DNA from: Balneolales bacterium
Lineage (GTDB): Bacteria; Bacteroidota; Rhodothermia; Balneolales; Natronogracilivirgulaceae
DNA length: 64,000 nt
Assembly (NCBI GenBank): GCA_007132975.1
Contig: SLNO01000050.1
Span: forward strand, 1 to 64,000
Reading direction: 5' to 3'
Shown: in pieces, positions 40,889-53,553 of the stretch
How the letters are laid out: each line of letters starts with the position of its first letter
Position numbering within the stretch: position 1 is the first letter of the stretch
Notes under the pieces: model-generated
Told to the model about the DNA's origin: nothing
What the model saw: only the letters and a program-made list of their open reading frames with translations
Database searches by the model: none
Position numbers and translations under genes: made by a program

Positions 40889-41168
40889 GTTACGTGTCAG
40901 CCCTGGCAAAACAGGGTAGCTAATATATGACAAATCACAGGCCGTAGCAACATGAATCGGCGGTCATTCTTGGTCTGATTACAGGGGGAACCCATAAATG
41001 CAATGGATGGAAAAAGCCTTGCAAGTTTATGTTTTATTATTTGGGCATCTCCAGCGCAAAGCATAATATGACAAACTCCTTATTATTGTTTTTTAGCTAT
41101 TTATAGAAATATTTTTTGCTTTAAACTATCTCATGATTTAGATTGATTCGTGAGTATCCAAATTAGTG

Positions 41169-44100
41169 ATGGCTGTTGCGTGTAAATTATGGAGTGATTT
41201 GAAACGTTCACTGCTCAATTTGGTAAGTATTCGTAGCCGGTCAAGAGGCCAGGCGTCAGGGAATAACATCCCCGCTGAAATTCTCAGCACCGAAGGGAGC
41301 TTCCGCCTGACACGTCGCGACATGATTACGGCGATGACTTTGATCGGCTCCATTCCCCTGCTACGGTCCTTCGGGACAACCTGGCTCGGCAGCATCCGTC
41401 TTGAAAGATCCAAAGGTTGTGCCATTTTCCATTTCAGGGGAAAGGAAAGATGGGTGATAGACGAGAAGAGGTTTGCCGGAAGGCCAAAGCTTGATATCGT
41501 GCACAATAAAAAGGAAATCGAGATTCGTTTGCGCGACGCACTATACCCCGGCACGCTCGTTCCAGCCGGTTTTACATGCCTGCTCAGACCTACTTTAAGC
41601 GGCTGGCGGATGAGTATGACCACCGAAACGGGGATCAATACCACCGTTTCTTTTGAACAGTGGCTGCTGGGTTTGAGCCGGTTGTCAGGAACACTTCCCA
41701 AAAATATTGATGTTACCCATCCGGCAAACTCCTTCCAGGCCAGCATCCCGGCCGGGTCTGTCCACTCACTTTCTGCCGGATGGCTGCACACATTCGGAAA
41801 TGGCATCAAACTCTCCATTGTCCTGGCTGGATTCGGCCTCGTCTCCAACGGCATAACCATCAGGCCGCCGCCGGACGGAGCACTCTCTTTTTTCCTCCAT
41901 CCGCCCACCCGCCGCTCCGTCATAACTTTCAACAACGCCGAAGCGCTCCTTCGCATCGCCACCAATCCGTCAAGAGAACGTCAGGGATTCTCCATTCCTG
42001 AAACCGGATTCCGCCAAATAACCGTTGAACTGGGAGAAAGCACGCGCAAAACCCAAAGAACGGCATTTCTGGCCAAAGCGGACCTCAGTGACAACCCGGT
42101 GCCTGTCCGCCCGTCCCCCGACCTAAGGGACGCCTCCGGCGACACGCTGAAATTTTCGGCCAGCAAACTCTCTTATGCCGCCGAATTCAATGGTGCGGGA
42201 AGTCACGAAGTGGTGTTGGCGACAGCATCCGAGCAGATTCACTGGACCTACTGCGGAGAAGAGGGAATGATGCTGGGTTGCAGCGGATACGGCGATGACA
42301 TGGAATTTGAGATCCGGGACAGACAGCTGGTGCGCACAAGTTGCAAGGCCATGCTGCTGGGAACCATGCTGCCTCCGGCCGGAACCCGGGTCATCACCCA
42401 GCCGGTGCTGCTCCCTGAACCCGTTCCGATCACCGTTTCCCTTGAGCACACAGAAAAACCAAGACGTGGTGCAACACGTGGAAATGAGATCCGAATGGCG
42501 GCCCGAGGCGAGAATCCGCCCGTGCTGCGGCTGGACAATCCCTCCGTTGAACTGATCCGTCCCGACGACCTTGTTGTCCAGAGATTTGAATTTGTGAACA
42601 TGGCGTTCCGCGGGGAGGGGCCGGACCGCGTCATGACAACCACTACCGGCACGCCCTACATGATCGTCTGGCATCAGCCGCAGAACATCGGCGAAGAGGC
42701 CTTTTACGAGCATGCCCCCAACCTGGATTTGAGCGATGCCAACCCCGAAGATCCGGACCTTTCCAACAATGTCGACAAAACCCTGCCCTATCCGCCCCCC
42801 GTCAAGGCGCGTTATTCCGGCCCCAGCCGCGTGGTATACAAGGTACCGCCTGGCACCACCATCCCCTACCGGCTTGAGGATCTGCTGGAAGCCTGCCGCA
42901 CATTTGAGATGAACGTGGCGCCCACGGCGCTGCCGCCTCCCGTCCAGGCGGCCGGATTTCATTTCATCGGTGAGATCGCACCTTCCGTGGCGGTTCCGGT
43001 GATCGATCAGATGCGGGATGCCCGCCGTGCTCCACGACAGCCGAGAGAGTCCAACTTTGATTTTGTGTCACGACTAATGGAGAGTCCGGCGCTCAGGGGT
43101 GCCGTCAGCGCCACGGAAGGCATCAAAACCGTACCGCCACCGGGTGAGCGGCGTATGGAGGCGGCGCAGCTTATCCGGGCGCAGCGGGATATAACCGTGT
43201 CCCGAAACTCCATGATCACGTCCGCAGCGGTGCAGCCGTTATCCGAGATCGGCCAGATCACAACCCTACTGGCCCCTAAACCCGCCCCGCCCGGGCCGCA
43301 CGATACGGCCATCGAAGCACCCTACCGTCTGATCGTTTCCCCCAACCGCCTGAATGGATGGGCGCATCGCATGGATCCCGGGCAATCGGACAAGACCGGA
43401 CGCATCGAGCTCTGGCACTCCCGGCTGGGGATGCGGAGGCAGGACGGCACCGTCGATGAAAATCAGCGTTGGGGAAGGACCATCCGCGCCATCTGGTACA
43501 CCGATCCGAAGACGGACGATTTCAAAAGCAACTCCCAGAGCCAGCTGGCCCACGAGCACGACCCGTTCCGGATGTCACTTGACTGGTTCGACCGCCATAA
43601 CCTGGTGCACCTGACCTCCAACTTCCAGCTCAGCAACCCGAACGGTGGCAATTACGTACCGCGTCCGGTGGATGTAAACCAGTTCATGCTAAGCTCCCTC
43701 GGCGCATGGATGAACGTGCGCGGTGCATGGGATGTGCTGCCGTCAAACCTCACGGTCGAGGAGTGGCTGCACCGGGGCACGCTGGGGCGCGACCACTACG
43801 TCAAGGTGGTATACGCCGGTCACCTTTTCCCCTTCGGACACCGGGCCTCACTGATCAAAGTAACAGAGCGCAAGTTTGAACCCATGCCGGGACGGCCCTC
43901 TGTAAAGGTGGCCTATCTGCGGCAGCGCATGTTCATAATCGTCCGCGAACCCGTAATTGTACAGGCACTGGGCAACTCCCCCGATGACCGGAAAATGCCC
44001 TTCAAGAGCATCCGGATCACCACCCGGGCCACACCCATCCTCGACGATCCCGGCGGCAGCGACTACGACGGCAAAAAGCAGTCCCTGTTCTGGCCAATGG

Positions 44101-46286
44101 TGAGCACCAAAGATTTCCATTTCAATCTGGTCATGGAGGATGTGGAAGGCGGCCTTCATGAAGTGAGCATGCCCCTGGCGTTTGTCGGAAAGGAGATCCT
44201 CGATGCCGAAGAAAACCAGGCCCAGTCGCCGTTGCCCGAACTAATCGCCGACTTCAATCAAGGTGATAACAAATCCCGCCGTGAACGTCCGTTCGGCGGA
44301 CAAATGGTGGCGTTTGCCCCGGCAACGACCCCCGGCGACACCGCCTTTGAAACGGCGATGGTGGAATTCCATGCCGTTAAAAAGACCGCACACCCCTACT
44401 TTGTGCCTGTTCTGAATTCGGCCAGCATCGACGCCCCGGCCGTTTCACAGCTCACGGGAAGCGAGCTCACAAATGTGAAGATCAGTGACTACTACCTGTC
44501 GAACGGATTCACTTCCGGTGGCGCCAATGCCGGCGAGATATTTCTGGACCTGGTTTCGGCCCGGGATTTCAACGTGGAGGGCGAAGGCGACAAATCCGGG
44601 GCTCTGGTGCAGCCGAACATGAGCATCACCGCCTTTTCACGCAAGTCGGGAACCGTGGGCGGCGATCCGGACACCTTCGCAGGTGGAAATTTCGACCCTG
44701 TGAAATATTTCGGCGGCGACGATGACACACCGATAGACCTCAAAAGCGCGTTCTCCCCGAAACTCTTCGGAGTGATCGATCTCTGGAACATCATTGTTGC
44801 GGCCGGGGTGGACTTGCCCGGCAAATCGCCCCGCTTTGTCACGGAAGCCCTGAATGTCATTGAAAAGCTGATCAATGAAACCGGCAGACTCAACCAGCTC
44901 GCACAAACCATACCGGCCGGTTCCATTGCCGCCCTGAACGACCTGCAAAACACAACCGATCAGCTTCTCGCCACGTTTCAGTCCGCCATCAACAACCCGG
45001 CAACTTTTTCGGCGGCAACTCTGCAAAACCAGCTTCAGTCGGCCGCGTCGATTCTGGACAGCGTTGAATCACAGCTTGCCACCGCCACTGCCCTGAACGA
45101 AAGTCTCCGTCGCGAAGCAGGCTTCGCCGTTTCCGCCGTTAAACAGCTGCTCGACGTCCCGGCCAAGATATCCACCATCCTTGAAGAGTTTCAGAACTTC
45201 ATCCAGGCCATTGAAATGGCCAGGGAGATGCGGGTCCGGCTGGAATGGAAACCAGACATCACACATTGGCCCCAGACCAACCCGGTCTTCATCCCGTCCA
45301 TTCAGGATGTCGGAGACGGCTCTTTCGTGCTGGCCGTGGAACTGAATGCCAACCAGGGCAGCAGCAATGGCTCCGGGGGACAATCCTTCGAAGTGCTGTG
45401 CTGTCTTGACAATTTCACCATCAACCTGATCGGCAGCAAGACATTTGTCAAGGTCTACTTCAACAAAATGGCCTTCTCGGTCCGCACGGGCAAGAAACCC
45501 GCCATCGATATCGATTTCCGCGGACTCGAATTCGGCGGACCTCTGGCCTTCGTGGAGCGGCTCAGGGCCTTGATCCCCCTGGATGGCTTCAGTGATCCAC
45601 CTTATGTGAACGTGGATGCCGGAGGTATTGAAGCCGGCTTTACTTTTGAGATTCCCACCGTGGGCCTTGGTATCATCACCTTGCAGAACGTAGTCCTCGG
45701 GGCAAAAACCAACATCCCGTTCATAGGGGAACCGCTGAGTATCGGGTTCCACTTCAACACGCGCGAGACGCCGTGCACCATCACGGTCTATGGCATCGGC
45801 GGTGGTGCATTCGTAGGCGTGGCTGTGAACATGAACGGCCTTCAGATTGTGGAGGCGGCCCTCGAATTCGGCGGATCGGTGGCCTTCAACGTGGCGGTAG
45901 CCAGCGGCAGTGTGCACATCATGGCCGGCATCTATTTCAAGATGGAGCTGACCGGCGGGGTCACCGAGGTCACGCTCACCGGCTATCTGCGCATTGGCGG
46001 CAAGGTCACGGTGATCGCCCTCATTGGAATCTCCATAGAGCTGAGAATGGAGCTCTCCTATATCACTACTGGTGACTTTGGCAAAGTGCGGGGCAAGGCG
46101 TCGCTCGAAGTCAAAGTGAAAGTCGTCTTTTTCTCCATTGGTGTGACCATCACTGTTGAAAGGCAGTTTGCCGCAACCAACAACGATCCGACCTTCCTTG
46201 ACGCCATGGGTCATCCGTACGTCGACCCCTTCCTGCTTGAGGAAGTGGATCCCTGGGAACAATACTGCATCGCCTACTCGGAATAA
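41169..46286 (+). CDS. Giant hypothetical protein 1 (~1705 aa), Tat-like N-terminal signal, coiled-coil and beta-rich C-terminal domain
   Basis: Uninterrupted ORF (GTG 41166 or ATG 41169). SFRLTRRDMITAMTLIGSIPLLRSFG; APYRLIVSPNRLNGWAHRMDPGQSDKTGRIELWHSRLG; C-terminal alternating-strand segment. Confidence 0.9.
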   Translation: MAVACKLWSDLKRSLLNLVSIRSRSRGQASGNNIPAEILSTEGSFRLTRRDMITAMTLIGSIPLLRSFGTTWLGSIRLERSKGCAIFHFRGKERWVIDEKRFAGRPKLDIVHNKKEIEIRLRDALYPGTLVPAGFTCLLRPTLSGWRMSMTTETGINTTVSFEQWLLGLSRLSGTLPKNIDVTHPANSFQASIPAGSVHSLSAGWLHTFGNGIKLSIVLAGFGLVSNGITIRPPPDGALSFFLHPPTRRSVITFNNAEALLRIATNPSRERQGFSIPETGFRQITVELGESTRKTQRTAFLAKADLSDNPVPVRPSPDLRDASGDTLKFSASKLSYAAEFNGAGSHEVVLATASEQIHWTYCGEEGMMLGCSGYGDDMEFEIRDRQLVRTSCKAMLLGTMLPPAGTRVITQPVLLPEPVPITVSLEHTEKPRRGATRGNEIRMAARGENPPVLRLDNPSVELIRPDDLVVQRFEFVNMAFRGEGPDRVMTTTTGTPYMIVWHQPQNIGEEAFYEHAPNLDLSDANPEDPDLSNNVDKTLPYPPPVKARYSGPSRVVYKVPPGTTIPYRLEDLLEACRTFEMNVAPTALPPPVQAAGFHFIGEIAPSVAVPVIDQMRDARRAPRQPRESNFDFVSRLMESPALRGAVSATEGIKTVPPPGERRMEAAQLIRAQRDITVSRNSMITSAAVQPLSEIGQITTLLAPKPAPPGPHDTAIEAPYRLIVSPNRLNGWAHRMDPGQSDKTGRIELWHSRLGMRRQDGTVDENQRWGRTIRAIWYTDPKTDDFKSNSQSQLAHEHDPFRMSLDWFDRHNLVHLTSNFQLSNPNGGNYVPRPVDVNQFMLSSLGAWMNVRGAWDVLPSNLTVEEWLHRGTLGRDHYVKVVYAGHLFPFGHRASLIKVTERKFEPMPGRPSVKVAYLRQRMFIIVREPVIVQALGNSPDDRKMPFKSIRITTRATPILDDPGGSDYDGKKQSLFWPMVSTKDFHFNLVMEDVEGGLHEVSMPLAFVGKEILDAEENQAQSPLPELIADFNQGDNKSRRERPFGGQMVAFAPATTPGDTAFETAMVEFHAVKKTAHPYFVPVLNSASIDAPAVSQLTGSELTNVKISDYYLSNGFTSGGANAGEIFLDLVSARDFNVEGEGDKSGALVQPNMSITAFSRKSGTVGGDPDTFAGGNFDPVKYFGGDDDTPIDLKSAFSPKLFGVIDLWNIIVAAGVDLPGKSPRFVTEALNVIEKLINETGRLNQLAQTIPAGSIAALNDLQNTTDQLLATFQSAINNPATFSAATLQNQLQSAASILDSVESQLATATALNESLRREAGFAVSAVKQLLDVPAKISTILEEFQNFIQAIEMAREMRVRLEWKPDITHWPQTNPVFIPSIQDVGDGSFVLAVELNANQGSSNGSGGQSFEVLCCLDNFTINLIGSKTFVKVYFNKMAFSVRTGKKPAIDIDFRGLEFGGPLAFVERLRALIPLDGFSDPPYVNVDAGGIEAGFTFEIPTVGLGIITLQNVVLGAKTNIPFIGEPLSIGFHFNTRETPCTITVYGIGGGAFVGVAVNMNGLQIVEAALEFGGSVAFNVAVASGSVHIMAGIYFKMELTGGVTEVTLTGYLRIGGKVTVIALIGISIELRMELSYITTGDFGKVRGKASLEVKVKVVFFSIGVTITVERQFAATNNDPTFLDAMGHPYVDPFLLEEVDPWEQYCIAYSE

Positions 46287-46304
46287 ACCAGCCCGGAGTG
46301 CCTC

Positions 46305-49300
46305 TTGCCATCGCAACGATTCTTACTGACTGCACTGCCGAAGACACCGGAAAACTGGATCGCCGGTGACGGCCTCCATGTGTCCGCCCATTTCGCCCCC
46401 CGGCTAAGCAATGGAACGCAACTGGGGCAGTTTGCCGGATTCACCGCCGGAGGAATATCCTGGCCCGAAACGGTTTCCGGCCTGTCATTCACGGTGGACC
46501 TCAACGGAACCGCCTATCCCGCCGAAGTGGTCTCCGACCCCGATCCGTCCTTGTGGAACCATCTTTTCCGCGACACCACCCCGGTGCACTCCCATGACTT
46601 CCCCGACAGAAAGGAACTGCGCATACGCTCTTTCCCCATTATCCAACTGTACGACCAGCTCAAGGAACTCTACGAATTTGCGGCGGAGGAATCGCCCGAG
46701 TCCTTCATCCCGGTCCGCCACCACCACTTCCCCCGAAAAGAATTCGACACGCGCTCATCCACCCTGCTCGACAACCTGGTAAACAGTGCCGGCGTCCTGG
46801 CCGATGACACCACCTACCGTCGGCTGGATGGAATTGTAACCGAGCTGATGTCCGGCACAGAACCATACATCACACCGCAAAAAATAAACCAGATCGCCCA
46901 GGCGGCAGCCGTTAGCCCGATCGCCGTCCAGTTCCACATGCTCCAGCGGTTCTACAAGCGTCCGCACCTGCAGATATCCCCGCCGCCGCAACTGCCCGAA
47001 ATCGATTTCCACACCATGCTGGGCATACTCGAAGACTACCCGGTGCTTATGCGCAGGCTAGGAATCGTGGTGGATTTGAGGATCGACCCCGGCGCCCATC
47101 CACCCTCTGACGGCGCGGTGTCGGTAAGTGTCGCCGGGGATCCGGGCGGACCCGTAACCTCTCTGCAGACACGGTACGAATATGACGCATCCGCATCCAT
47201 TTTCATAAGCCGGGGCAAGGACGGCAATGTCGCGGACGTGCGCGCCGGACGGCTTCGACTGGACAACCCCGAGCGCTACCGCCTGGTCCAGGTTGATGCC
47301 GACAGCATGGCCCTTAAAACCGTGCACCTTCTGGGCAACCTCTGGCTGCGGAACAGCCATCACGTGGGAAGAAACTACGCCTCCCCGCAGTCCGAGAGCC
47401 TACCTGCCCTCCGGACCGCAGGACTTGCCGTGATCAAGCCCATGAACGTAATGGCGATCCACCAGTCATTCCTGACGGCTTTCAACATGAACACGATGTA
47501 CCTGGCCAACCAGCCTCCGGAGGCATTCCAGCACCTGCGCTTCGAGGATGTGCTGCAAGGGTATATTGTGGATGTATTCGATGAAGATCGCCAGACCTGG
47601 TATTCGCTGTGCCGTCGACAGGGCCGGTACCGGCTCGGGGCGCCGCCGGTTGACGTTGTGGAAGAGGACGAGGGTTTCGTTGCCGATTCTGTTATCGCCA
47701 AGAATGCCGACGGACTCGAAGACGATCTCTATGTGCATGATGCGGTTTTTCAGTGGGATGGATGGAGCCTGGTAGCCGAAAAACCGGGCAATACCATCAT
47801 CCCCGAGGAGGTGGCCGGCGACGCTGAGCCAGGATCGCTGTCGCACGGATACGAGCGGTCGGGAAGGGTGCAGCAGAAGCCGCCGGACGATTTTCCGCTG
47901 GAGGCGCATTTCCTCCCGCAAAGGGGGTCGCTGCCCAAACTGCGGTATGGACGGCGCTACCGCATCCGTGCGCGCGCGGTGGATATTGCCGGAAACGCCA
48001 TCCCGCTCCGGCCGGATTCCGGCGAAATGTCGCATGCATCCAATCTGGTACGGTTCGGGCGCTTCGAGCCCGTGCTGCCCCCTGCCATTCTGTTGCGCAC
48101 CCGGGTCACGGAGGGCGAATCGGTCGAGCGCATGGTCATACGCAGCAATTACAACATGACCGCGCAGGAGTACGGCAGCGATCCGGACGTGCAGCAGGCC
48201 ATTTCCGCTTACGGACACGCCTACCTGCCCGACAACCAGCGCCACATCGCACCGGCAAAAACGGCCCAGATCACCGCCGAGATGCACGGTGAGTTTGACG
48301 AGGCCATCGGCGGCGGCCAGAACATCCAGGCATGGTTCCGGATAGCCGTCAAGGAGCGCGGCACCTTCCACGATACCATGATCGTGGATACCAGCACGGG
48401 GCAGGCCACCATCCCGGCCGAGGGGCTGGAGCTGATCACCCCGGACAACCTCCCGCCGGATATCGAACCGGTGCAGAGCCTGGAGGATCTGAACCCGGGT
48501 GACTCGCTGGCCACGGGGCAATACGTGCTCCACAATACCAACCAGGTGCGCCTGCCCTACCTGCCCGATCCGCTGGCCGGCACCGCGGCCTTCCGGGGCC
48601 TTCCGGGCGCCGGCGACGACTCCTTTTTTGTCTCTTTCAACCTGGAATTCCCGGAGGCTGAGCCGTTCCGCGTCGTTGTCATGGAAGGTGAAGGTCCGCC
48701 GCAATTCCAGGCCAGCGACCCCGATTTCGGCCCCAGAGTGCTCCGGGTCTACCTGAAAAAAGCCGAGATCGTCACGGTGCGGTTGAGCGTATCGCTGAGG
48801 GAGGAGGATCTGGAAAAATTGGGGATCTGGCATTGGCTCATTGATAAAGGCCTGCCCGCCAATACATTGAATCAACTGCGGAGCCTGATCCTGCGTGGCC
48901 GCCACTGGATGTTCACCCCTTCACGGGAGCTGGTACTGGTCCATGCCGTGCAGCAGCCGCTTGAAACGGCCGGGTACAATTCGATCACGGCATCGAAACA
49001 GCAGATCGGTGACACCCTTGCCCGGCTTTCCGGCAGTTTCAACTTCCATTGCAAAAGCACCGGGCGTGTCGACTTCCTGGCCGAGTGGGACGAGCCGTTC
49101 GACGACCCGACCCGACCCCTGCCGCAAGACGGCGTCGACGGCAGGGAGATCATCCACAAGGAAGGCCGCGTCCTTGAAATGCCCATTGAGCCGTTTTACG
49201 AGGATCTCGACACCATCAATTTCCCGGTGAACCTGAACGCCGTTCCAAACTACCCCTACCCGAAGCAGGCTCAGTCCGCTTTCTACGAGCATGATTTCGG

Positions 49301-50531
49301 GGACACCAAACACCGACGTGTACGCTATCTGCTCAATGCAACCACCCGGTTCCGGGATTACTTCCCGCCGGAGATCTATGAAAAATCCGAGCTGATCAGC
49401 CGCAGAGGACCCCACAGAGAAATCAGCGTGCCCAACTCCGCCCGTCCCGACGCCCCCAGGGTGCTCTACGTGATCCCGACATTCGGCTGGGAACGCGAGC
49501 ATGTGGCCGGTGGAAACGTGAGCCGGCGCTGCGGCGGCGGACTGCGCGTGTATCTGGACCGGCCCTGGTACTCATCCGGAGAAGGCGAACTACTTGGCGT
49601 GGTCATGGCCGGTTCGGCGCCATCGCCGGGTCCGAGTCTCGCAGCGCCAACGATTCCAACGGTGCCCCAACCCGCGAGGCTTCAGTTTACCGCTCCGGGC
49701 TTCACCCCAGACAACCCGCTTCGGCTGCTCACCACCCAGTGCGGCGTTGATCCCATCTGGAAAAGCGAGGATACACCCGCCAACCTGACCCCGATCCATT
49801 TTCCGGAAGCGGCCGCGACCCGTAACGGCCTGACGTTCGAGGAAGTGGACGGCCTGTACGCCTCGGTGGCCGGTCATGAGGTCCATTTTGACACGGAGCG
49901 CGGACTCTGGTACAGCGATATCGTGGTCGACCTCGGCCAGACCTACTACCCGTTCATCCGGCTGGCACTGGCCCGCTATCAGCCCGAGTCCATCGCCAAC
50001 GCGCATCTCTCGCGGGTCGTCCTGGCGGACTTCATCCAGCCCGCACCCGACCGCACCGCTGCCGTCATGCGTCCGACCAAGTCCGAAATCCGCGTCATGG
50101 TCTCGGGTGGATTCGGGCTGAACACCATATCCACAAGTATCGGCCAGAACCCGATCGGACAGCAGGGCCAGGACCCGATCCGGTTCACCCACCGGGTGGT
50201 GGCGACCCTGGAACAGCGTAACCTCGGCTCCTCGGATGCCTGGCTTCCGGCCGCCGATCAGTTCACGGAGGTGGAACTGCCGCCCGTCCAGCAGTATGGT
50301 GGAAGGATGCTGTGGATGACCACGTTCACGCTTGACGAACCTGACAAGGAAGACACCATCATCGCGGCACCGGTTACCGAAAAAGAGTACCGGGTGGTGG
50401 TCAAAGAGTACGAAATGCTCCCGGTGGATCAGCCGCAGCACTCGCTGACAGCAACCACCATCGGCGCCAACATTGGCAAACGGATCGTCTATGCCGATGC
50501 CCTGGAAGTTCCGCCGGCCCAGCAACCCTGA
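46305..50531 (+). CDS. Giant hypothetical protein 2 (~1408 aa), no obvious signal peptide
   Basis: TTG start at 46305 with GGAG at 46295-46298; GRRYRIRARAVDIAGNAIPL, HWMFTPSRELVLVHAVQQPLE, TGRVDFLAEWDEPFDDPTRP, FGDTKHRRVRYLLNATTRFRDYFPP. Confidence 0.9.
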   Translation: MPSQRFLLTALPKTPENWIAGDGLHVSAHFAPRLSNGTQLGQFAGFTAGGISWPETVSGLSFTVDLNGTAYPAEVVSDPDPSLWNHLFRDTTPVHSHDFPDRKELRIRSFPIIQLYDQLKELYEFAAEESPESFIPVRHHHFPRKEFDTRSSTLLDNLVNSAGVLADDTTYRRLDGIVTELMSGTEPYITPQKINQIAQAAAVSPIAVQFHMLQRFYKRPHLQISPPPQLPEIDFHTMLGILEDYPVLMRRLGIVVDLRIDPGAHPPSDGAVSVSVAGDPGGPVTSLQTRYEYDASASIFISRGKDGNVADVRAGRLRLDNPERYRLVQVDADSMALKTVHLLGNLWLRNSHHVGRNYASPQSESLPALRTAGLAVIKPMNVMAIHQSFLTAFNMNTMYLANQPPEAFQHLRFEDVLQGYIVDVFDEDRQTWYSLCRRQGRYRLGAPPVDVVEEDEGFVADSVIAKNADGLEDDLYVHDAVFQWDGWSLVAEKPGNTIIPEEVAGDAEPGSLSHGYERSGRVQQKPPDDFPLEAHFLPQRGSLPKLRYGRRYRIRARAVDIAGNAIPLRPDSGEMSHASNLVRFGRFEPVLPPAILLRTRVTEGESVERMVIRSNYNMTAQEYGSDPDVQQAISAYGHAYLPDNQRHIAPAKTAQITAEMHGEFDEAIGGGQNIQAWFRIAVKERGTFHDTMIVDTSTGQATIPAEGLELITPDNLPPDIEPVQSLEDLNPGDSLATGQYVLHNTNQVRLPYLPDPLAGTAAFRGLPGAGDDSFFVSFNLEFPEAEPFRVVVMEGEGPPQFQASDPDFGPRVLRVYLKKAEIVTVRLSVSLREEDLEKLGIWHWLIDKGLPANTLNQLRSLILRGRHWMFTPSRELVLVHAVQQPLETAGYNSITASKQQIGDTLARLSGSFNFHCKSTGRVDFLAEWDEPFDDPTRPLPQDGVDGREIIHKEGRVLEMPIEPFYEDLDTINFPVNLNAVPNYPYPKQAQSAFYEHDFGDTKHRRVRYLLNATTRFRDYFPPEIYEKSELISRRGPHREISVPNSARPDAPRVLYVIPTFGWEREHVAGGNVSRRCGGGLRVYLDRPWYSSGEGELLGVVMAGSAPSPGPSLAAPTIPTVPQPARLQFTAPGFTPDNPLRLLTTQCGVDPIWKSEDTPANLTPIHFPEAAATRNGLTFEEVDGLYASVAGHEVHFDTERGLWYSDIVVDLGQTYYPFIRLALARYQPESIANAHLSRVVLADFIQPAPDRTAAVMRPTKSEIRVMVSGGFGLNTISTSIGQNPIGQQGQDPIRFTHRVVATLEQRNLGSSDAWLPAADQFTEVELPPVQQYGGRMLWMTTFTLDEPDKEDTIIAAPVTEKEYRVVVKEYEMLPVDQPQHSLTATTIGANIGKRIVYADALEVPPAQQP

Positions 50532-50611
50532 TCGCCAAAACTGATTAACAAGCCTGACCTGCAAAGATGATGAATAGATCTGATCAAAAGACCTGATCAA
50601 CCAGCCCTGAC

Positions 50612-52564
50612 ATGGCTCGCAAGTCCACATATCGGCAACACATCCAAACCGCTCTTCTTGCGGCCGGCAGCCCGTCTATGGCAGGCTGCATACTCATGGC
50701 CGGTTTCCTGATCCTGGCCGGGTCAGCCCATGCCCAGCCGGACCAGCGCGCAACCCGCCCCGTGCAACTGATCTATGGCGGTTACCACAAGATGCACTTC
50801 GAGACGGCGAACCGACAGCATTTCGGTTCCGAACACCCGCTCACACTGTTTCGCTGGGAGCTCCAGCCAACCGTAAGCGCCTACGGCATACCCTTATCCA
50901 TGAGCCTGTTCTACACCACCGAAGACAACAATCCGGGCGGGAACGCCAGCCGGTTCCAGTTCGGGCTCAGCCTCAGCAGCGACCAGCTTGAGCAAACCCT
51001 CCGCGACCGCCTGCAGAACGAAATGCACCAATCCACACGGGAACTGATGGATCTGGAACCGTCATTGGCAACGGAGGCAGATCGCTCACAGATAACCGAC
51101 CGTGTGGACCAGCTGGCCGACCTCCAGCACAACCTGGATGTATCGTCGCGGCGCCTGGACCAGATGCAAAGTCTTGGTTTGCTCAGTTCCACCGAAAGAT
51201 TGGCCATGCGTTTCCCGATGCTGGGCATCGGTGCGGCCTATCCCCACTACTCCCGGTTTGTGATGCAAGGTATCACGGTGAGCGGGTTTCACCTTGAAGT
51301 GCTGCCCGGAAGGGCGTTCCTCGGGACCAATATCGGCAATGTGAGGAATCCCGCCGGAACACCGGGGTTTTCCCGGTTCGGCGTCTTTGAAAACGACCGG
51401 AGGATCTATGCCGGTCGGGTTGGATACGGACGTCCCTTTGGAAGGCATGTGCACCTCATGGGGGTGTACGTGGATGAGTCCCCCGATGATCCGCTGCGTG
51501 ACAATATGGAGGGGCCTGGGCCGCATCCACAAATGAAAAATTTCATCACCGGCCTGAAATTCCGGATGGGTGCCATCCGCGACCAGCTTGACCTGCAGGG
51601 CGAACTGGCGGCGTCATTCCTGACCAGGGATGCCGGTGCGCCGGATATCGCCAACGACGACCTTGCGAGCATTCCCGTTATTTCACCACTGATCGATCCC
51701 AACCTGAGCAGCTCGGCGGATGTTTCCGGCATGGTGGATGCGGCCCTGCGCCTGCCGGGTCCGGGCACAAGACTGCGAGCCGGAATGCAGTACGTGGGTC
51801 CCGGCTACATCAACCTGGCATCCCCTGCCCTTCGCAACGACCTGATCGAGCATATGGGTGGAATTGAGCAATCGTTTGTTCGCCGGCAGGTAACCATCAG
51901 CGCAAACTACAGGGCCGAACGCAACAACATCGACAATCTTAAAAATTTCACTCGGACATCCACCCGGTACGACCTGCAGCTGGCCTTGAATTTCCGTGAA
52001 CTGCCCTGGGTCAGGTTTCAGTACATACCCGTCATCCAGAAAAACAGGGCTCGGGATCTGCCTGCCGGAACGCCCGGCGAATACACCTACAATACCAGGG
52101 TCGTGAATGTCATAAGCGGGTACTCGGTGCCGATCGGGACAGTGGTGAGCACTACCACGGTCAACGTATCCGGACAGTTCGTCAGCACCGACCTTACGAA
52201 TGCGGATGCCACATCCTTGCTGATTGGCCTGAACCAGCATGTGGCGTTTGGCAATGCCACGGTTCACGGCGGATACCAGCGGTTGTCCTTTACCCGGATG
52301 CAATCGACCTCGGTTCGGAATGACTTCACCCTGGGGGGATCCCTGCGCATCCTGGGCATGTGGATGCATGAAGCCGGCTTTCGGAACTCATCCGGGCAAG
52401 ACCAGGTGCGTGTAACCGGTCTTTGGTACCGGAGTTCTGTTCCAATCAGGTACCTGGGGGTATTTGAAGTCATGGTTGACCAAAGCTGGTTCTCAGGCTC
52501 TTTTTTCACTGAGGGCACCTTCAACCAGACACAATTCTCGGCCTCGCTAACCCGGTCATGGTGA
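50612..52564 (+). CDS. Predicted outer-membrane beta-barrel protein with coiled-coil insert
   Basis: Signal peptide ...GFLILAGSAHAQPDQ; LEQTLRDRLQNEMHQSTRELMDLEPSLATEADRSQITDRVDQLADLQHNLDVSSRRLDQM; beta-strand-rich C-terminal half ending in SLTRSW. Confidence 0.7.
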   Translation: MARKSTYRQHIQTALLAAGSPSMAGCILMAGFLILAGSAHAQPDQRATRPVQLIYGGYHKMHFETANRQHFGSEHPLTLFRWELQPTVSAYGIPLSMSLFYTTEDNNPGGNASRFQFGLSLSSDQLEQTLRDRLQNEMHQSTRELMDLEPSLATEADRSQITDRVDQLADLQHNLDVSSRRLDQMQSLGLLSSTERLAMRFPMLGIGAAYPHYSRFVMQGITVSGFHLEVLPGRAFLGTNIGNVRNPAGTPGFSRFGVFENDRRIYAGRVGYGRPFGRHVHLMGVYVDESPDDPLRDNMEGPGPHPQMKNFITGLKFRMGAIRDQLDLQGELAASFLTRDAGAPDIANDDLASIPVISPLIDPNLSSSADVSGMVDAALRLPGPGTRLRAGMQYVGPGYINLASPALRNDLIEHMGGIEQSFVRRQVTISANYRAERNNIDNLKNFTRTSTRYDLQLALNFRELPWVRFQYIPVIQKNRARDLPAGTPGEYTYNTRVVNVISGYSVPIGTVVSTTTVNVSGQFVSTDLTNADATSLLIGLNQHVAFGNATVHGGYQRLSFTRMQSTSVRNDFTLGGSLRILGMWMHEAGFRNSSGQDQVRVTGLWYRSSVPIRYLGVFEVMVDQSWFSGSFFTEGTFNQTQFSASLTRSW

Positions 52565-53553
52565 CCAACTCCTGGAAAATGAAAAAGTACCATACACATA
52601 GTAGAGCCGGGCTTCCATTGAATGTGGAGCCATGGATGATTCTGTGCCTTATCTCCGTGATGCTGCTGCTACCTGCCGCGATGGTAAAATCGCAGGATGT
52701 TGTGGTAGTGCGGATAACGCCGCCTCCCCACAGTCAGCTTAGTGTAGCGGATCTCTGGCGGATTGAGCTGACCAACCTATCACGTCAGCCCCTGAATATT
52801 TACATGATTGGAACTGTGGAGCGCGAAGGCTCGGGGCTGATACTTGAGGCGCGTTCGGCCGCTTTTCAGATAATGACGGGGCTGAATCGTTTGACCGGCA
52901 GTGAAGTGCAGCCGGTGAGGGTGAGTTATGCCGATAATCGGTACCGTGATGCGATTTTTCGCACAGGAAACGTGCCCGCAGGAGATTACTTGCTTTGCGT
53001 CACTGCTTTTGATGTCAACGACGGGCGGGAATTGGGGCGTGATTGCCTGATGCACTCCGTGCAGCCCTTCTCACCACCCAGTCTTGTGGCGCCTGTCGGC
53101 GATATGGTCATTCATCAGCCCTATCCGGTGTTTACCTGGACTCCCCTTGCGCCTATGCCACGGGACGGACTCGTCAGGTATCGGCTCAGGGTGGTGAAGC
53201 TGCATCGTGGACAGCCGCCGGAAGTGGGCCTTCAAACCAACATATCATGGTTCGAAGATCCACAGGTGCTGCAAACATCCTATCCCTATCCGGTCGAAGC
53301 CCGACCCTTTGAAGCGGGCAGCTACGCATGGTTCGTGGAAGCGGTGGATCCGCGAACCGGAAACCTTCTTGCAAGAAGCGAAGCAGACGTATTTCGGTGG
53401 GAGCCTTTCCAGGTGCCATCCATTGCGGATATTACCGCCATCATCACTCCACATGGCATCCCATCCGACCTGTTCGAGGCAATTATGAGGCCCTGTTATG
53501 GGACTCCGGATCCTTTCATGCCGGGCACGGTCCTGGAGTCCTGGCACGAATAA
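52558..53553 (+). CDS. Secreted FN3/TANFOR-like protein
   Basis: 7-bp overlap with the upstream gene; signal peptide; LVAPVGDMVIHQPYPVFTWTPLAPMPRDGLVRYRLRVVKLHRGQPPEVG...AGSYAWFVEAVDPRTGN. Confidence 0.6.
   Translation: MVTNSWKMKKYHTHSRAGLPLNVEPWMILCLISVMLLLPAAMVKSQDVVVVRITPPPHSQLSVADLWRIELTNLSRQPLNIYMIGTVEREGSGLILEARSAAFQIMTGLNRLTGSEVQPVRVSYADNRYRDAIFRTGNVPAGDYLLCVTAFDVNDGRELGRDCLMHSVQPFSPPSLVAPVGDMVIHQPYPVFTWTPLAPMPRDGLVRYRLRVVKLHRGQPPEVGLQTNISWFEDPQVLQTSYPYPVEARPFEAGSYAWFVEAVDPRTGNLLARSEADVFRWEPFQVPSIADITAIITPHGIPSDLFEAIMRPCYGTPDPFMPGTVLESWHE

Follow-up and report, generated by a model that had tools for sequence, protein, structure and literature searches.

Heteromeric hitchhiking through the Tat pathway is an established mechanism, described for smaller complexes (PMC4273604, PMC10924467). 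In Bacteroidetes, the TANFOR family has been described, and TANFOR proteins have been proposed as T9SS substrates (PMC7073777). Literature searches returned papers on both subjects and nothing on the gene pair reported here, i.e. two adjacent giant genes, A and B, which are followed by genes C and D in the window (the whole stretch of 64,000 nucleotides analysed, contig C65 of a 3.24-Mb draft genome). The nearest named relatives of the window are Balneolales MAGs. Taken together, the data suggest an as yet undescribed machine made of two proteins, A and B, which is probably exported and forms a large complex at the cell surface.

The features of the locus are collected in Table 1. All four genes lie on the + strand, with a gap of 18 nt between A and B and an overlap of 7 bp between C and D. 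A terminator scan revealed no site between A, B, C and D, and fewer sites than in shuffled sequence. Comparison with the orthologues of genome G009 gave dN values of 0.124 (A), 0.096 (B) and 0.159 (C) at a dS of ~1.2–1.5, corresponding to dN/dS ~0.10, ~0.07 and ~0.11, respectively. Because the orthologues are full length and dN/dS is low, the ORFs are not due to chance; all four are intact and real, and purifying selection, computed for A, B and C, is strong. The intact giant ORFs and the tight, co-directional layout described in the earlier note are thus borne out. Upstream of A, a divergent pair (window:36893-40579) comprises a 704-aa lipoprotein-like ORF, for which no Pfam match was obtained, and a DUF5723 protein (E 3e-21).

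Table 1 Coordinates of the genes and protein features of the locus (positions in the window)
Feature	Position	Strand	Description
Gene A, giant protein 1	41166-46286	+	1706 aa; GTG start by mechanical rule; ORF call
Tat-type signal within A, TRRDMITAMTLIGSIPLLRSF	41310-41390	+	twin arginine and hydrophobic stretch
Conserved A core, from [LV]RPDDL to YC.A(F/Y) tail	42531-46283	+	alignment A3, n = 68
C-terminal amphipathic antiparallel beta-meander of A	45288-46283 (window boundaries approximate)	+	placed from the secondary structure of the modelled relative
Gene B, giant protein 2	46305-50531	+	1408 aa; TTG start; ORF call
Gene C	50612-52564	+	650 aa; signal peptide; predicted outer-membrane beta-barrel-like protein; lineage-specific partner
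Gene D	52558-53553	+	331 aa; TANFOR-like/FN3-like, secreted; lineage-specific partner

Relatives of B were collected by a pattern scan over one genome per species (85,488 species), and the best 80 of the 327 relatives obtained were examined. Among these, the A–B pair occurs in at least 15 named phyla, including bacteria without an outer membrane; as the examination covered the best 80, the figures on distribution are lower bounds. A is located directly upstream of B, on the same strand, at 73 out of 73 loci with upstream DNA, mostly within a distance of ~30 bp; at the remaining 7 of the 80 loci, B is a fragment truncated by the start of the contig. The mean identity is 38–42% over >1000 aligned columns for each of the two proteins. 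A tblastn search of plasmid records retrieved A in 22 and B in 19, with carriers that include Rhizobium, Bacillus, Cupriavidus, Diaphorobacter and Streptomyces, and adjacent giant A–B genes were present at every A site inspected among these records. In each of 30 whole genomes from diverse phyla, the count of A equals the count of B. Genome-wide co-occurrence, which the earlier note had proposed as a check, was addressed within the window's phylum: of 398 genomes, 18 have a strong A, and these same 18 and no others have a strong B (18/18 carriers). The chance of this co-occurrence is ~1.5e-31 before kinship is considered, a nominal value that is optimistic as the genomes are related.

Pairwise distances of A and B across 67 loci correlate with r = 0.96 (0/2000 permutations). 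The two trees have 46 of 64 splits in common, and 4 of the 51 supported A splits conflict with B. Moreover, the A–B gene tree mixes phyla. An Oscillospiraceae member is nested in alphaproteobacteria, Holophagaceae groups with a betaproteobacterium, Silvibacterium with Bradyrhizobium, and one Armatimonadota member falls with the Bacteroidota group. The correlated distances, the common splits and the mixture of phyla in the tree show that A–B is inherited and transferred as a unit, i.e. as an obligate, co-transferred giant gene pair. The adjacency, the co-occurrence and the correlation of distances strongly support the proposed functional partnership of the two giants, and the pairing across distant genomes that would speak for it extends over at least 15 phyla (best 80 of 327 relatives). 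A pair of ~9 kb that has stayed linked despite numerous transfers among at least 15 phyla must have a selectable role. Linkage is not absolute, since one of the 30 whole genomes, G063 (Armatimonadetes), carries a second A and a second B on separate contigs, not near the contig ends (L149:1590-6653 on G063:C3 and L150:3354-7604 on G063:C20); this is the sole clear break of pairing seen.

In most lineages A–B is found alone, without C and D. Apart from C and D in the FCB clade, neighbouring genes are shared only between closely related A–B loci. Phospholipase genes lie near two A–B copies, once each. Phospholipase or protease neighbours were considered as a clue to function and dropped, being too sporadic beside single copies. 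Long A forms of 2277–3311 aa occur on alphaproteobacterial plasmids. In Agrobacterium vitis and S. meliloti, the long-form pairs (L176:1-3668 and L178:1-8929) adjoin defence-type genes, namely dpdE/dpdF as well as an N-6 methylase, a UvrD helicase and a PD-(D/E)XK nuclease. A more distant branch is represented by G157 and G227, two genomes from the window's phylum in which B gave no more than a weak match. Their giant ORFs follow the A–B order, with lengths of 1760 + 1401 aa and 1759 + 1385 aa and a spacing of 20 and 45 bp. Similarity to this branch is limited to short blocks: in profile comparison, the region of the YxFRVRxxDISGG / YRxRARxVDLAGN block of B reached E ~1e-5 and the C-terminal meander of A E 7e-5. 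In the distant A–B-like pairs (~1760 + 1400 aa) at L167:5849-15357 and L169:5868-15350, the layout is kept and sequence similarity is almost gone. We refer to the distant pairs as a second family.

At E up to 1, searches of Pfam, PHROGs, NCBIfam and PADLOC gave no match for either A or B, and comparison with PDB sequences, singly and as profiles, gave nothing meaningful. In 11-sequence alignments of A and of B, no member has a credible Pfam match. A Tc/ABC toxin complex was rejected, as TcA, SpvB/TcB and RHS are absent from A, B and alignments A1 and A2 (Pfam). A contractile injection system or phage tail was likewise rejected for want of a PHROGs match or a phage or viral-contig relative; a phage or prophage origin was dropped with phage and viral collections devoid of relatives, and a known anti-phage defence system with no PADLOC model matched. 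The absence of recognisable enzymatic, toxin, phage or CIS motifs stated in the earlier note therefore holds, A and B being without a match in Pfam, PHROGs, PADLOC and PDB sequences and C without a family match. A characterised family covering the giants, which would have argued against novelty, was not found in Pfam, NCBIfam, PHROGs, PADLOC or PDB. Set against these five collections, A–B is provisionally novel at the level of the protein pair.

The core family region of A spans residues ~456–1706 of 1706. A complete A relative of 1018 aa was modelled with AlphaFold at a pLDDT of 82.6 (alignment A3, 68 A cores), resulting in a mixed beta core followed by ~14 C-terminal antiparallel strands. 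The last seven strands display a hydrophobic and a polar face, with a hydropathy difference of 2.2–4.7 compared to roughly 0–2 for most core strands. A Foldseek search of the PDB returned weak porin and FhaC matches (TM <0.3), OrfX/P47 (E 1.3e-3, prob 0.30, TM 0.06–0.10) and further weak fold matches to LBP, MTP and ApoB; no convincing match was obtained among viral structures. On these values, assignment of A as a porin or as an OrfX/P47 TULIP protein was rejected. In the A homologues of Bacillus pseudomycoides (L015:9116-12403) and of a Chloroflexota MAG (L087:2444-6406), propeller-like N-terminal repeats, recognised by eye and without a Pfam match, seem to replace the Tat region. The AlphaFold model of B reached a pLDDT of 88.2 (alignment A4, 77 B). 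B is predicted to form an array of Ig/FN3-like beta-sandwiches and has no signal peptide; the modelled relative contains a helical segment near residues 114–242. Among PDB folds, B matches only generic arrays of the Ig, FN3, complement and A2M kind, at a global TM of ~0.1.

Homologues of C adjoin A–B in Balneolota, Rhodothermota, Chlorobiota, Ignavibacteriota, Kapaibacteria and the genome G310. Homologues of D occur in these C-bearing lineages, in further genomes of the Bacteroidota phylum and in one Armatimonadota genome, whose member has D only and is located inside the Bacteroidota-group clade. Across the FCB clade, D is found up- or downstream of A–B in either orientation. At A–B loci outside the FCB-group clade, C and D homologues were not found. 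The idea of a four-gene system, put forward in the earlier note, is thus not borne out: C and D are lineage-specific, most lineages have A–B only, and the position of D varies. C has no family match in Pfam or NCBIfam, and its sequence, read by eye, is that of a predicted outer-membrane beta-barrel-like protein. A resemblance to TANFOR (TIGR02542) was detected in two D relatives only, and was sub-threshold (E 0.05–0.08; best 13.4 bits vs. a cut-off of 67), while D of the window has no TIGR02542 match in NCBIfam. At the C-terminus, D-family proteins carry an RCC1 propeller or nothing, and no toxin domain with a downstream immunity gene was seen. Assignment of D as a TANFOR polymorphic toxin was rejected on the score, which is under the cut-off, and the lack of a Pfam toxin domain. 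The fusions, in which the RCC1 beta-propeller is C-terminal (L071:1985-4240, L172:2392-4545 and L175:17012-19000), are found in Kapaibacteria and other Bacteroidota-group genomes. The window's genome encodes the T9SS translocon component SprA; a T9SS sorting domain (Por_Secre_tail or type B CTD) was found on none of A–D by Pfam and NCBIfam. C and D could plausibly serve as an outer-membrane anchor or receptor.

The N-terminus of A contains a twin-arginine motif, TRRDM, and a hydrophobic stretch, a feature absent from the earlier note. Tat-type signals were scored near the N-terminus as S/T-R-R-x-[FLM] with a hydrophobic stretch behind it, using a regular expression and hydropathy and not a trained predictor. 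By this measure the signal is present in A of the window and of all FCB homologues scanned, as well as at every scanned Armatimonadota, Aminicenantes, WS1 and Myxococcota locus, in 4/6 Chloroflexota, on one Streptomyces plasmid and in the long alphaproteobacterial forms. Canonical SRRxFL signals are found on A in deeply separated phyla. The motif occurs in 23 of 491 background ORFs, and in none of the 88 B proteins scanned; a match in L092 (PRRRAGRR) looks spurious and was discarded. As A has no such motif in most Pseudomonadota, all Bacillota and chromosomal Actinomycetota (most Actinomycetota members), Tat export of A–B cannot be general. TatC is encoded in the window's genome. On plasmid pC of Sinorhizobium meliloti, tatA is located 50 bp downstream of B (L027:24856-25023), directly after the giant pair and near a conjugation type IV secretion cluster; in other long forms, small secreted proteins or proteases occupy the same slot. 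With regard to the "secretion system" of the earlier note, the Tat-type signals on A suggest export of A–B and not a secretion machine.

How can these observations be combined? From the pairing, the signals and the partner genes we infer a physical A–B complex, its co-export, a surface location and a binding role. The reading we prefer, to which we assign a rough probability of 0.4, is that A and B are obligate subunits of one horizontally mobile complex that is co-exported by Tat, placed at the surface via C/D and binds a ligand or cells. B would form a rod-like beta-sandwich array without an export signal, and A a multidomain beta protein ending in an amphipathic beta-meander. On the most likely route, the two would come together in the cytoplasm and then be translocated across the inner membrane by Tat, already folded and as one unit. 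B would be carried along by A, which bears the twin-arginine signal in the window's lineage and many others. In the Bacteroidota group, the predicted outer-membrane protein C and the secreted, adhesin-like D may then place or extend A–B at the cell surface, where it would bind a ligand or another cell. Surface placement is suggested because C and D recur with A–B through the FCB clade, some D with RCC1 propellers. With a mass of >300 kDa, an A–B complex would be an unusually large cargo for Tat, which counts against the predicted co-export. More tentatively, the pair may represent an undescribed class of two-subunit giant machine, widely traded among phyla and co-exported in the folded state via Tat (with its own TatA on one plasmid), that employs C, D or propellers as lineage-specific surface modules and acts on other cells or surface lipids.

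The amphipathic strands of A also allow for a rather unlikely alternative, in which A–B is soluble, consists of two components and acts on membranes or binds lipids; it would be released by export in some lineages and by lysis elsewhere. The meander of A would insert into a target membrane or carry lipid from it, and B would act as receptor-binding or scaffold arm. Suggestive in this regard are the last seven strands, where hydrophobic and polar faces alternate strongly, the weak fold matches of A (porins, FhaC, the tubular lipid-binding OrfX/P47, LBP, MTP and ApoB) and the phospholipase genes near two A–B copies; moreover, since A–B also occurs in bacteria without an outer membrane, the meander cannot be explained simply as a barrel of that membrane. 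However, the fold matches stay at TM <0.35 with E-values of 1e-3 or worse, the model of A superposes poorly on closed barrels (rmsd mostly 16–40 Å), and no recurring immunity gene or toxin domain was found, the phospholipase neighbours being seen once each.

Canonical SRRxFL signals in deeply separated phyla, tatA next to the pair in S. meliloti, and the exported appearance of C and D all make it unlikely, slightly more so than the preceding alternative, that A–B works inside the cell, be it as a structural or storage complex or as a conflict module borne by mobile elements, with the Tat-like motifs as a lineage-specific addition. PADLOC did not return a match either. Still, A without a signal in most Pseudomonadota, Bacillota and Actinomycetota would agree with an intracellular role, and so would the occurrence of A–B on plasmids, in some cases next to defence-type genes such as dpdE/dpdF or those for an N-6 methylase, a nuclease and a helicase. 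We regard it as improbable that all four genes form a surface/secretion system with A–B as substrate, C as outer-membrane channel and D as surface receptor, possibly linked to T9SS. C and D do recur with A–B in the FCB clade, SprA is encoded in the genome, and TANFOR proteins have been proposed as T9SS substrates (PMC7073777); conversely, A–B exists without C and D in most lineages, a T9SS C-terminal domain was not found on A, B and D, and the order and orientation of D vary.

The preferred reading, a mobile complex co-exported by Tat and displayed at the surface, concerns a ~9-kb pair that none of the searched family libraries or structure collections describes and that has cultured, tractable carriers in Rhizobium, Paenibacillus and Streptomyces. 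If co-export is true, A–B would be far larger than the familiar Tat hitchhikers and would probe the size limit of Tat.

Compared with known systems, the likeness is partial in each case. D resembles the TANFOR polymorphic toxins of Bacteroidetes (TIGR02542; PMC7073777) in being secreted and beta-rich, with a weak TANFOR-like block, an FN3-like region and a similar Bacteroidota-group distribution, but differs in its score (13 bits vs. 67) and in lacking a C-terminal toxin domain, and A and B are unrelated. A shares long antiparallel amphipathic beta structure with OrfX/P47 and other TULIP or large lipid-transfer proteins, albeit with no sequence similarity, a Foldseek E of ~1e-3 and a TM of ~0.1. 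Its amphipathic beta-meander, of comparable strand length, is reminiscent of outer-membrane porins and FhaC-type barrels, from which A is distinguished by TM <0.3, its occurrence in monoderm bacteria and a Tat instead of a Sec signal. B is a string of beta-sandwich domains like the bacterial alpha-2-macroglobulin and complement-like proteins; assignment as alpha-2-macroglobulin-like was rejected, as the whole-chain TM is ~0.1 and Pfam A2M or MG domains were not matched. The Tat hitchhiker complexes, such as PaoABC and hydrogenase subunits, are much smaller than A–B and belong to known families of cofactor enzymes, whereas A–B has no enzymatic signature; what they have in common with A–B is one subunit with a twin-arginine signal, an unsignalled partner and adjacent genes.
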